Origin: Gelatoporia subvermispora B
Lineage: Eukaryota > Basidiomycota > Agaricomycetes > Polyporales > Gelatoporiaceae
NCBI GenBank assembly: GCA_000320605.2
Contig: KB445792.1
Location: 935,581-999,580, forward strand
DNA length: 64,000 nt
Direction: 5' to 3'
Shown piece by piece: positions 53,298 through 59,504 of the stretch (the first letter of the stretch is position 1; each line of letters starts with the position of its first letter). The position numbers and the translations under genes were made by a program. Below the pieces are notes generated by a model, which saw only the letters and a program-made list of their open reading frames with translations, ran no database searches and was not told where the DNA came from.

Positions 53298-56200
53298 ATG
53301 CCGGATGACGTCCTCATAGTCCCTGTAGCCAGTCCAAATGGCGCGGTTCATTTTGCAACGGTCAATTCGGATGCGACCATCCAGGACGTACTTGACACAC
53401 TCATCCTTACCCCGGCGGCTACCTCTGACGTTCTTCATGGTCTCGAAGAGTACGGCTGGGCATTGCAGAGGATTAGACGCGAGCACCCTGGTAGACAGTG
53501 GGAGGAGGCAGATTTGGAGGCCCTGGGCAATGGTATGTGCTCGTGTTTTTACTATGGTATCCTTGTCTCTCATATGTTCTGCGTAGGAATAATGCCTCCC
53601 TCTGAACAAGTCGCGCCATTGCTAAATGCTCCCGCTCCGACTGCGCGTTCTGACAAGACGTTCTCCGCATTCCCTCTCACGTCCCATCTCCATACCCCAA
53701 TTCTGCGTCTGGTGTCTCTTCATCCTTTCCTCTCCATGACGTGCTCATTCCTCCGTGTGCCTGAGATACATGATGATTTTCAGTGGAAGCTGTTCATCTC
53801 CCGAACTTCCGATGTGGGGGATGCCATAGACTCCATTATAGATGAACTTGGTCTTGCCAGATCTTTGCCTACGCCAGGGGGCGGAAACGTAGACTACGTC
53901 CTCGAGGAAGTTTGGAGTGTCGGTGGCTCTGAAAGTAAGATGTTGCTCCCCTGGTCCAAAATCGATGCTCACCAGCATCTGTTAGAATCTTCGAGGTTGC
54001 CTAACTCTGCATCTCTGTCCAATATACTGGAGTCCCCATTCTCTACTAATCCCATAGGTCCGTCTGCTACCCGTACGTTCAGGTTCTGTGTTCCCGATGA
54101 GTGGTACCGTCGCTCGAGATCTCGCACTATCTCCTCCTCGTCGCTTACGCCTTCAGAGGCCACTATAAGACGCCTCGCGGATCTGGAGGAAGAGGAGGAG
54201 GAAGATAGTGAAGTTGTTGATGGCACGGCGAGGCAAAAGGATCTCGTGCAGCCACAGGAACGCGAGACAATATCCCCACAAGCAACCGGAACTGCGGCTG
54301 ATTGGCGCGGGTCGGTCTCTGCCAGCCGTCTCTCCAGCCTTCTGGAAGGATGGGTATACTCGACTCCTTCCGGTACAGGCTCTATCTCACAGAGAAAGCC
54401 TGTAAGCGAGCCGAAATTGATCGACCGAAGAAACAGTATCATCATCGCGGGTCCAGCGGACATGACCACGACTGATGGAGGCGCGGCAGATGATGTTGAC
54501 GCCGCGGTGTTTGAGGAATTTCTTGTAAGTTGAGCATACCTTCGTATGATATCGCGTCTCAGAGCATTCACAGGATGAGCTGGGACTCAAAGGACCTAAC
54601 AGAGATGCAATGTATCATTTGCCACCCGAGAAGAAGAGATACTTACTTGAGACTGGCGCGGCCACAATGTCGAAGGCGACAGCTGCGAGATCAGCCAGCA
54701 AGGTTGTAGCTGCGCAAGCCTCTACTTATTCGCCGGCGACTACGGCCTCTCTTCTCCCGCGTCTTGTCCCCCAGTTGACCGGAGACTCCGGTATCATGAA
54801 ACGGTTTTCCATCGCTGGATGGGGTTCTGGAAGTGGTTCCGATGGCGGGAATACTCCGAAACGGTCTAGCACCGAACACAGTGATAGACGCAGCTCCACG
54901 GAAGCTACTGGCCTGTGTGCAGACGAGTTGGAAGCGCAACCAATTCAGCCACAGTCTACGGGCAGTTTATGGAGTAGTTGGTGGACGTCGGCTGGAGGCG
55001 AGAAAGCAAGTTCGGACGTGAAGGGACAATCCAAGGAATCCGGAAAGACCGCAACGTGGTATGTCGACGGCATCCGCAACAAGAGGTCAACAGATACCAA
55101 GCTTGTGAAGCATCTGATCTCACTACGAGTACACCTATCGACAGCCAATTTAGCATGGATAGAGGACTTCGTCTCGGAGCAGAGAGGTATGGACGTCCTG
55201 GGCCGGGTGTTGGAAGGGCTGGTCAGCAAAGGAGGCAAGCGTAAGAAGCTCAACGAAGTTGAGGAGACAGTCCTCTTGGAATCTGTCAAATGCTTCAGAG
55301 TTCTGTTGAATACTGAGGTGGGTATACGGCTATGTTGTTCGGCCGCGTACTGATCACTGTCGTAGCCCGGTTTTCGTTACATTCTATCTGCACCAGCTCT
55401 AACAACAAACATTGCCTATTCGCTACACGGCTCCTCCATCAGACTACGCACACTTTCCTCGGAGATTCTTGCAGCGATATGTGTTCTATCACCTACCGAG
55501 GGTCACCGGGCTATTCTCTCTGCATTGTCCGACTATCGCGTAGAATATGGCGAAGCGTTCCGCTTTCAGGAACTTATCGCGTCCTTACGTGTTGCCAGCA
55601 TGTCTGACGACGGCACAACTGACGAATCGACCTACAGAAATGATGAGGAGGGCGTTTGGGAAGCGCGCGCGGCTTCTATGGCATTGATCAACGCATTAAC
55701 GACTTGTCCTGACTCCTTAGAGGAGCGCATTCTGCTACGAGAAGAGTTTGGGAGGCGAGGGCTGAACGAAGCCATTGTGGTAAGTGCTGCTTACTGCCAC
55801 TCAACTATCAGTATTCTCAAGATAAACAGGCTTTGAGATATGTGAAACCACCAGAATCGCTCATAACACAGTTGGACGTATATACCGAAGAGAAGTTCGA
55901 AGATGAAGAAGATATGCGAGAGCGCGCACGGAACATTGTTCACGCTACAGGCCCTCGCTCGGAGATCGACGACGAGTTTGATAACTTTCTGCATGCTGCG
56001 AAACATCACGCTGAATTAGGACCCGTTGTTTCTCGAACCCTCAAATCCTGGTGTATGCTCCTGGGGAGAGGCATTAGCATGTGAGTGCTGACTCATTCAT
56101 GGGGAGTCGCGTTCTGAGCTCTTGTAGCGAGCTCAAGACAGACCTAACGGTAATCCTGGAACGCTTCGTGGAACGCTTGCATATACTTGGGAACCTGTAT

Positions 56201-59200
56201 GTCCAAGATAATTCTCACTTCATCCTATCCTAACAGTGGGATTGCGTTGCCCTACAGCGATGACGAATGGGAGCTATTTCTAAAGCAATTCTTGCTATCA
56301 GTACAAACCCTTACCGGCAGACCACTGGAAATTGAAGTCGCATCTGCTGATGTAACAGAAATCGAAGAGGAATTGGAGTCTTTGCGGTCACAAGTCGAAC
56401 TCCTAAACCAAGAGGTCCGTTGCAATGTATATAGCTCTTCAATATGTTCACATAAACGCGGGCAGAGGACGAGATTGCGAGACACCATTGACGAACAAGC
56501 GGCCGAGGTCGCTACTTTGAAAGCTTTGACGCCTCAAATGCCGCCGTCTGGTTCTCGGCAAGCTGGGCGGGGAGAGGTACGTAATTTGTCTAGACATCCA
56601 CTGCAGTTGCTTTGACATGCCCCAGCCTATATCCGGCGTTGTACAACGACTTGTACAGAAAGAAAAGCAAGTTCTGCAGCTGCAAGCCGAAGTTGACAGA
56701 CTTAAGGCTGAGAATCCGACTGAAGATAGGGAAGCTGTGAGCTCGATTCCTTGACGTGTGATCTCCTGGTGCTTATTACCTTGATCAGGAGGAACGAGCA
56801 AGACGGGAGCGAGATCGAGTCAAATGGACCACTCTGATGGAAGAGATTACCAACCTCAGAGCACAGGTGGGCCACGTTCACGGTTTTTATAGGAGCCACA
56901 CTTCTCAGCGGACTCTCCTAGAACGGCGAATTGGAGGCCGCCATGACCACGAAAAATAAAGAGGCTGTATATTTAAAGCGAGCGTTGGAGTCCGTATACT
57001 CTCGATTCCGTCTACGAGAGGAGTCCCGCGAAGAGTCCGAAGTTGACGCAGAACTCATTGCCAATCGTGCGATCGATAGCCTTACTCAGAAGGAGGAGGA
57101 GATCTTTGGTCTCCAAGCTGAAATCGAGAAGTTGAAGTTTCAACTCGCGGAGAAACCCAAGTTCATCTCTGAGAAGGATTACAAACACCAAGTCGCACCT
57201 CCACCTCCGCCTCCCGCAAAGCCTATGCGTTCCACTGATACCCCTGTAAATGATCGGAATACTGACCTTGGCCGGACAGTTTCGCCGCTGCCACCACCAC
57301 CACCACCGCCACCACCACCTCTGCCCTCCCTGCATACTTCCTCCACCGATGTCGTTATATCGTTACATCCTTCCGATCCTTCAGTTCCGGCGGGGGCGGG
57401 GGCGGAGGTCCACTAGCCATAGGTGGTGGGGGAGGCGGAGCAGTAGGTCCACTAATCATAGATGGTGGAGGGGGAGGGGGAGGGGGAGGGGGAGGTGGAG
57501 GTGGAGGTGGAGGCACCGGGCCACTGTCGGCACTAGGACTGAGTGGTGGAGGCGGCGGCGGAGGTGATGGCGGCGATGGACATCCCGCCCCCGCCCCTTC
57601 CTCCATCTGTACAACGGAACAAATTCGCTCCATCGAAGCCTCTGAAACGTCTCAAACCGTTCTTCTGGAACAAGTTGTCTCCCACCACAATCGCGTCCAC
57701 TGTCTGGAGTGATGTCAGCACAGACACTACCTTCGACCTGGAAGACCTAGAATCAACTTTCTCAATTGATACCTCCAAGTCCACTGACTCGCAACTCTCC
57801 GTGACTTCGCCGAAGAAAGCTTCTGTGACTACTCTGCTTGATATCACGCGTGCCAATAACGTCGGTGAGTACCCCGCTCACATCACAGGAATACAAACTG
57901 ACATGTATTTCTTACGAAGCCATTATGCTGTCACGGATCAAGCTCAGTCTCCCCGGAATCAGATCAGCTCTCCTCCAACTCGATGATGAGATTTTATCTG
58001 TTGATGACTTGCGAGCCATCAGCAAGCAACTACCCACATCAGAGGAGGTGAGCGCAGTATAGAACTTTTTTGCATAGGTGTGATCTCAAATGTTCCATAG
58101 ATCACACGTCTCAAGGACTATGGTGATGTTGGCAAGTTGGCTAAGGCTGATCAATACTTCAGCGAGGTGAGAGCCGTTTGGGGACATGCGAGCCAAACAA
58201 GTATAGTGATATTGTATAGATCATGACCATACCGAGGCTATCGGAGCGCTTAGAATGCATGTTATACCGTCGAAGACTTGAGCTTGAGATAGAGGAGATC
58301 CGGCCAGAACTCAACATAGTCCGCAGCGCATCAGTCGAGCTGCGTTCTTCGCCAAAGTTCAAACGTGTTCTACAGGTTATATCATCCGCTATTTTGAGAC
58401 TGTGGTCGCTGATTGATTTGCAGGCAATTTTAACAATCGGCAACGCCCTCAATGGGACCACCTTCCGCGGTGGTGCTAGGGGCTTCCAGCTGGATGCATT
58501 GTTGAAGGTATGCGGGCGTGACACATACTACGACACTAGCTTATCCCACGATGTCAGTTGAGAGAGACGAAGACGGCAAAGGGAGGAGTAGAATGCCCTA
58601 CTTTGCTCCACTATCTGGCGAAGCTTCTTCTAAGGAGTGATTCATCTCTGGTCATGTATATAGAGGACATGCCGCACCTGGAGGCAGCGGCTCGAGGTGA
58701 GATTCAATAGTGGTCTCACCAACCCTCAAAACTGATGGTCTCGCAGTATCACCTCAGACGCTCATTGGATGTGTTCAGTCTCTCGTCGCTGGCCTCAAAC
58801 AGGTCAGAGATGAGATACAAGAAGTACACCGACTACATCCATCTCCCGAGGATCGCTTCGTCAGTGTTATGCAGGTATGCAACCGTGTTGAGGGGTCTTC
58901 TCATGTGCTGATTACCTCGAACAGCCTTTCGTCTCTCGAGTTTCTTCTAGTGTTGAAGCTCTGCAGAACATGGCTGCTTCGCTTGATAGAGAGCTTCGCT
59001 ACATGCTGCAGTTCTATGGGGAGAACCCGGACATACCGGAAGCTCCCAAGCCTGAGGACTTCTTTGGTCTTGTACAAACTTTTAGTCTGGCCCTTCAGGT
59101 AGGCTTTTCCTGTTGTCATTTGACCCCCTATTTAAATTGTTCGTCCAGAAAGCGGCGCTGGAAGTACATGATAGTGCTTCTGGGCACGAGGCTAAGATAC

Positions 59201-59504
59201 AAGTATCCAAGGAAACCTCAACAAGCCTCTCGGAGGCCACAGTCAGTGATTTCATGTGTTGCGTTGGCTTGCCGCTAAATTCGATCCGGTGCAGACTATC
59301 AAGCAAGGCAACGACCCATCGCGAGCAAATCTACAGGTACCTCCATCGTCATGGAGTCGTGCAGGCGATCCTTCTGTTGGTCGCGGAGATTTCGACGATG
59401 TCATCCGAGGACTACGCACCGGCAAGCGACGTGCTCGGGTTCAGAATAGGCCACTTAGCAAGATCTTCATTGACGGCAATCGGGCTAGTCGGGCCTTCGA
59501 CTGA
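53298..59504 (+). CDS. Formin (GBD/FH3-FH1-FH2-DAD)
   Basis: Actin nucleator for cables and the contractile ring, regulated by Rho GTPases. Domains in order: an N-terminal region (MPDDVLIVPVASPNGAVHFA); a GTPase-binding start at DELGLKGPNRDAMYHLPPEK; FH3 with WYVDGIRNKRSTDTKLVKHL and CFRVLLNTEPGF; a coiled coil (EEELESLRSQVELLNQE); FH1 polyproline from about 57200; FH2 from LKRLKPFFWNKLSPTTIAST through TIGNALNGTTFRGGARGFQL; and a DAD-like end DFDDVIRGLRTGKRRARVQ followed by a basic tail. About 18 introns give roughly 1,700 residues. The FH1 segment 57406-57584 reads polyproline only on the opposite strand (see findings). As written, the frame stops at 57414-57416, unless an intron from 57408 to about 57563 is removed. 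Otherwise the gene is intact. Confidence 0.9.
57393..57597. repeat. Inverted repeat pair flanking a reversed FH1 segment
   Basis: GGGGCGGGGGCGG (57393-57405) and its exact reverse complement CCGCCCCCGCCCC (57585-57597) flank 179 bases. The enclosed DNA is G-rich on the gene's strand and encodes long proline runs on the other. One base from the left arm plus 179 equals 60 codons, so flipping the interior keeps the frame on both sides. Confidence 0.85.

Follow-up and report, generated by a model that had tools for sequence, protein, structure and literature searches.

The formin gene and its public model

The DNA analyzed here, referred to as the window, is a 64-kb stretch of the genome of Gelatoporia subvermispora B, which we take to be the same fungus as Ceriporiopsis subvermispora. 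The window lies on a contig of 2,776,163 bases (C2), and the assembly that was searched comprises 37,718,642 bases in 52 contigs. Near the center of this analysis is a Diaphanous-type formin gene, which was modeled by hand (Table 1), with the intron at 53935-53985 taken over from the public protein P0001. A sequence-only reading of the window had recognized a formin here, and the Pfam matches to the GTPase-binding domain (GBD), FH3, and FH2 bear this out. The combination of GBD, FH3, and FH2 that defines Diaphanous-related formins is present, the domains follow the Diaphanous order GBD, FH3, FH1, FH2, and the frame is open save for about 190 bases of FH1. The FH2 region is 58-69% identical to its nine best matches after the gene's own protein.

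With 57408-57563 spliced and 58376-58423 retained, the formin exons yield the public protein CERSUDRAFT_102967 (P0001, 1689 aa) letter for letter. The retained stretch, 58376-58423, is a 48-nt intron (donor GTTATA) that adds 16 residues inside FH2 in the public protein, and these residues are absent from the relatives P0002 and P0003. A second formin of the same genome, on contig C13, has its proline tracts all in one orientation (locus L004).

Table 1. Features of the formin locus, in window coordinates
Feature	Position	Strand	Basis or remark
Diaphanous-type formin gene	53298..59503	+	Hand model: 21 exons, 20 introns of 47-61 nt
Drf_GBD, GTPase-binding domain	55027..55485 (approximate, from protein positions)	+	Pfam PF06371, E 2.5e-21
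Drf_FH3	55504..55937 (approximate, from protein positions)	+	Pfam PF06367, E 2.7e-16
Upstream FH1, sense polyproline	57198..57320 (runs 57198-57215, 57291-57320)	+	Tract scan
Putative reversed FH1 segment, preferred borders	57389..57583	-	Breakpoint enumeration; a single (CCGCCC)5 tract when rejoined, with GPPPPPPPPPPPLPP ahead of FH2
Left arm of 13-bp inverted repeat, GGGGCGGGGGCGG	57393..57405	+	Inside G-rich 57389-57409
Putative reversed segment, alternative borders (interior of the sequence-only reading)	57406..57584	-	Open frame on inversion
Annotated intron of CERSUDRAFT_102967	57408..57563	+	156 nt, donor GTCCAC, purine-rich before acceptor
First in-frame stop as written	57414..57416	+	
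Right arm of 13-bp inverted repeat	57585..57597	+	Part of CCGCCC tract
FH2	57633..59100 (approximate, introns inside)	+	Pfam PF02181, E 7.4e-87, spliced piece

Reading frame of the FH1 segment

The frame upstream of FH2 (56922-57416) closes at the first stop listed in Table 1, as the sequence-only reading had stated. As written, the formin model contains seven in-frame stops, every one of them in the FH1 exon. Reverse-complementing either 57389-57583 or 57406-57584, the 179-base interior that had been predicted to open the frame into FH2, removes all seven and yields a 1725-aa model that has no stop elsewhere. The reversed reading joins the upstream exon to FH2 in one frame and places long proline runs directly before FH2. 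The reversed piece is without decay, being open from end to end with no frame shift. A proline-rich FH1 directly before FH2 is present only if the segment is reversed; as written it is interrupted.

The proline fraction of the last 80 residues before FH2 is 0.56 in the restored form versus 0.29 in the public model. The latter value is the second lowest (P0015 is lowest, at 0.28) among the 30 proteins that were kept from 80 examined, the 50 without an FH2 anchor having been dropped. Runs of at least four prolines number six (51 residues) in the restored FH1 and three (20 residues) in the written one.

Comparison with related formins supports the proposed reversed FH1 cassette. In a comparison that gave both readings the same number of residues and entered stops as X, the proline-rich reversed reading outscored the written one in 29 of 29 related formins with either set of borders, the 29 being those of P0002-P0089 that had a recognizable proline start and FH2 start; others were dropped. 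For the exact reverse-complement relationship expected of a micro-inversion, the support is at the protein level, in every relative scored, and the G-rich orientation that the sequence-only reading had named as evidence against a flip, were relatives to share it, was not seen at the protein level in any of them; a conserved intron was likewise judged through proteins. We consider it very likely that a piece of FH1 of about 190 bases is reversed relative to the formins of related species.

Pattern searches revealed no glycine-rich or similar islands beside the proline runs of the 111 formins, among 120 listed, that have such a run. This result says little, because P0001, the public model of this very gene, is among the 111 and passes too. 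In the public formin P0022 of Trametes cinnabarina, FH1 is largely missing, as is the beginning of FH2; a comparable problem, or a gap, may lie behind this. A search of the assembly, which skips simple repeats, matched the window alone and so gave neither a further copy nor another allele. The protein collection held no recognizable same-species fragments in either orientation (six matches, 32-62% identity), and none of the titles listed for related terms in the open-licence literature pointed to an account of this flip.

Inverted repeat and breakpoints

The sequence-only reading placed the inversion at a 13-bp perfect inverted repeat flanking 179 bases. The repeat is there: the two arms are perfect reverse complements, 13 bp is their maximal length, and they lie 179 nt apart. 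Restoration of the frame also stood; the role of the repeat as the cause found no support in the form proposed. Of the 20,860 intervals tried in an enumeration of breakpoints, 1950 open the frame, and 57406-57584 ranks 449th of these. The most proline (78 residues) is restored by 57389-57583 and equally by 57389-57580, whereas the borders proposed earlier, although they open the frame, give 72. The form with 57389-57583 reversed also outscores the form with 57406-57584 reversed in 22 of the 29 relatives.

Inverting 57389-57583 brings the G-rich left end to the C-rich right end and creates an unbroken (CCGCCC)5. Because this inversion rejoins one hexanucleotide tract, the flip itself may have produced the inverted repeat, instead of being caused by it. 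Inverted repeats are present at the edges, as in known micro-inversions, with arms that are possibly the two parts of a split CCGCCC tract. The 13-bp repeat may be a single tandem tract cut in two, or it may be a pre-existing or homogenized inverted repeat.

The gain in open frame sets this repeat apart within the window. Among 65 perfect inverted-repeat pairs (arms of at least 10, spacer 20-1000), the formin pair, in two registers, was the sole one whose inversion gained a long frame, giving 354 open codons versus 148; the next best gain of any pair was 58. Inversions of 205 nt placed at random in the window gained at least 200 codons in 24 of 4000 trials, with intervals overlapping the formin included in that count. 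When codons were resampled with the protein fixed, none of 5000 trials produced a 13-bp repeat. An imperfect, longer inverted repeat also joins both ends, with a local alignment score of 17 that was reached in 0 of 2000 resamplings. This null retains the peptide AGAGAG, an oddity in its own right: among the 120 listed formins, only P0063, P0066, and P0077 were found to have Ala and Gly alternating in a strongly proline-rich context, and none of these has AGAGAG. Inverted repeats of 13 bp between C-rich and G-rich DNA are not rare here, since the other two of the three in the window share the same exon. Within the reversed piece, the G-rich run at 57470-57495 matches the G-quadruplex pattern (plus strand); four such places were found in the 64 kb, both strands counted.

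The annotated intron

The public protein model uses precisely the GT-AG intron that the sequence-only reading foresaw as an alternative. It is 156 nt long versus 47-61 nt for the other 20 introns of the gene. In splice scores built from the same 19 introns (of 20) of this one gene with which it was compared, its donor, AGGTCCAC, scores 1.28 versus 3.3-10.3. The pyrimidine fraction before its acceptor is 0.23 versus 0.31-0.69, and its acceptor motif, at 0.42, lies within the range of the other introns (-0.5 to 9.6). The intron is probably an artefact of gene prediction, by which the gene finder spanned the interruption.

A possible second case in a WASP-type gene

Long proline-codon tracts on opposite strands less than 500 bases apart were found at two places among the tracts listed, the formin and C8:478,023-478,186; the mapping covered the best 100 of 173, the best 100 of 125, and all 48 tracts in three sets. 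The second place (locus L050, C8:477000-479200, minus strand) is a WASP-type gene with a P21-Rho-binding domain (1.7e-7), and the relatives of its protein have WH1 and PBD domains. Its polyproline arm as written has glycine runs of 10, 6, and 5 residues, without loss of the open frame. When partly reversed, the arm reads PPPPPPTRSGPAPPPPPPPPPP; PPPPPTRS is found in Daedalea (P0134), and TRSGPPPPP is found in Punctularia (P0150). Both reversed forms outscored the written form (108 residues each) in all 21 relatives that passed the anchors, of 67 listed. Five or more glycines between proline runs were seen in none of the relatives with a proline run (60 of 67), many of which end before or within the arm. 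Judged from these sequences, the WASP polyproline arm looks partly reversed. A 12-bp perfect inverted repeat (L050 1098-1109 and 1240-1251) was rejected as the border of the segment, as inversion there restores just part of the proline. The borders are uncertain because several intervals near coding-strand positions 992-1108 restore more.

Tracts in both orientations at most 200 bases apart were present at 2 of 24 distinct long-polyproline loci that were read, the formin and the WASP gene. The 24 loci are a selection of sites, and the count is descriptive rather than a test because both genes had been noticed beforehand. In the WASP-type protein P0155 of Schizophyllum amplum, the polyproline arm becomes a Leu/His/Arg-rich stretch, which looks like a frame shift in the proline codons.

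Origin of the probable reversal

We lean, if only marginally, toward an orientation error in sequencing or assembly, to which we assign slightly less than an even chance. Most likely in a single event, 180-195 bp of FH1-coding DNA would have been reversed in the assembly. The right-hand break would lie inside a (CCGCCC)n proline tract, of which one portion was left in place and another turned with the segment, producing what looks like an inverted repeat. The public gene model would then span the lesion with a false intron, and the living fungus would keep the sense orientation, the flip having arisen during the sequencing or assembly of GC-rich, fold-back-prone DNA. Consistent with such an error, the open frame and the match to FH1 appear only when the segment is reversed, the formin model is intact everywhere else, and the gene as written either stops before FH2 or needs an intron that is atypical in length, donor, and pyrimidine content. 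The reversed piece has neither decayed nor shifted frame, and one assembly holds what look like two such cases, formin and WASP.

However, there are no gap letters (N) in the 64-kb window, there is no frame error in the reversed piece, and an overlap of 13 bp would be short for mis-orientation by an assembler. The splice scores come from one gene and the annotated acceptor motif is in range, and comparable real micro-inversions are documented in the portions of two reports used here (PMC8604942, PMC8755829). Base composition gave little help. GC content reaches 71% in 57389-57600 and 83% in the WASP stretch, but over 212 bases around the longest tract the formin ranks 7th of the 24 loci and the WASP gene 1st. 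An argument for an artefact, that both cases lie in the DNA richest in GC, did not hold for the formin, and we therefore lowered our estimate for an error, which had stood at an even chance.

An actual inversion, a switch included, is almost as probable. Most of that weight falls on a recent micro-inversion in strain B, a serious possibility in its own right, in which the segment would have been turned where proline-codon DNA is prone to fold back, either by template switching of the polymerase or during repair of a break, leaving a truncated formin or, through splicing of a weak intron, a short FH1. Precedents with flanking inverted repeats come from human and chimpanzee (PMC8755829) and from the spacers of yeast coding genes (PMC8604942), in the portions of those reports used here. 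The extended imperfect repeat linking the two ends, the similar look of the WASP locus in the same genome, a window without N, and the unexceptional GC content of the formin among the 24 loci are all consistent with a real event. Against it, the reversed piece is undecayed, FH2 would probably be lost unless the atypical intron were used, and the precedents described (2-5 bp in yeast, 17-33 bp between human and chimpanzee) fall far below 180-195 bp in length.

A switch, reversible or polymorphic, in which the segment would turn over time and again between the arms and thereby adjust FH1 length and profilin binding, is improbable. The repeat outlasts the inversion with the frame kept afterwards, the reversed piece shows no decay, and repeated spacer flips are described for yeast SPO75 and YBZ1 in the portion of the report used (PMC8604942). 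However, the assembly has a single copy in a single orientation, and the genome contains 53 copies of the arm sequence (24 + 29, both formin arms counted), so that the arms are not a dedicated recombination site. Because proline codons (CCN) and glycine codons (GGN) are each other's reverse complements, the polyproline arms of actin nucleators carry their own fold-back sites, and it is conceivable, if a long shot, that in this fungus the formin FH1 and the WASP arm are both truly flipped, recurrently and perhaps reversibly, such short inversions switching profilin-binding capacity off and on.

That 57408-57563 is an ordinary long intron and nothing is inverted is least probable of all: it offers an open GT-AG solution with an acceptor in range, which the public model adopted, but its length, donor, and pyrimidine content rule it out as the most likely reading, the opposite strand of the region codes for the missing FH1 in frame, and related proteins have polyproline at the same place. 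What probability the other readings leave belongs to this intron or to something not thought of.

Implications and comparison with known systems

FH1 polyproline tracts bind profilin, and FH1 passes profilin-actin on to the end of the filament; for Bni1, the influence of FH1 on processivity has been measured, including with a variant whose tracts were replaced by Gly-Ser (PMC11773026, in the portion used here). If the inversion is real, the written form would lose most of the FH1 proline or, unspliced, the whole FH2. It would be a coding micro-inversion in an actin-growth gene, several times longer than those described in the portions used of PMC8604942 and PMC8755829, and a likely second flip in another actin nucleator would hint that polyproline coding DNA is a hotspot for flips. 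If it is an artefact, a reference genome can contain a reversed coding piece masked by a gene finder's false intron, and others could be sought with a simple scan that inverts repeat-bounded segments and looks for a gain of frame.

The gene resembles fungal Diaphanous/Bni1-type formins in its GBD, FH3, and FH2 by Pfam and, when the segment is reversed, in the FH1 that precedes FH2. It differs in that FH1 as written is broken by the stops and the annotated FH1 is proline-poor. As far as the portions used of the two reports go, both kinds of documented inversion share features with this locus. In yeast coding genes, ten spacer inversions at inverted repeats with arms over 9 bp, attributed to template switching, likewise combine a perfect inverted repeat with a reversed spacer in a coding exon (PMC8604942). 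In contrast to the 180-195 bp here, with loss of frame, their spacers are 2-5 bp and replace up to two residues. The 59 micro-inversions between human and chimpanzee, reported to be all flanked by inverted repeats, likewise have a reversed segment between repeats at its edges (PMC8755829), but they are genomic events of 17-33 bp, whereas the 180-195-bp reversal in the formin may have arisen either in the genome or in sequencing or assembly.
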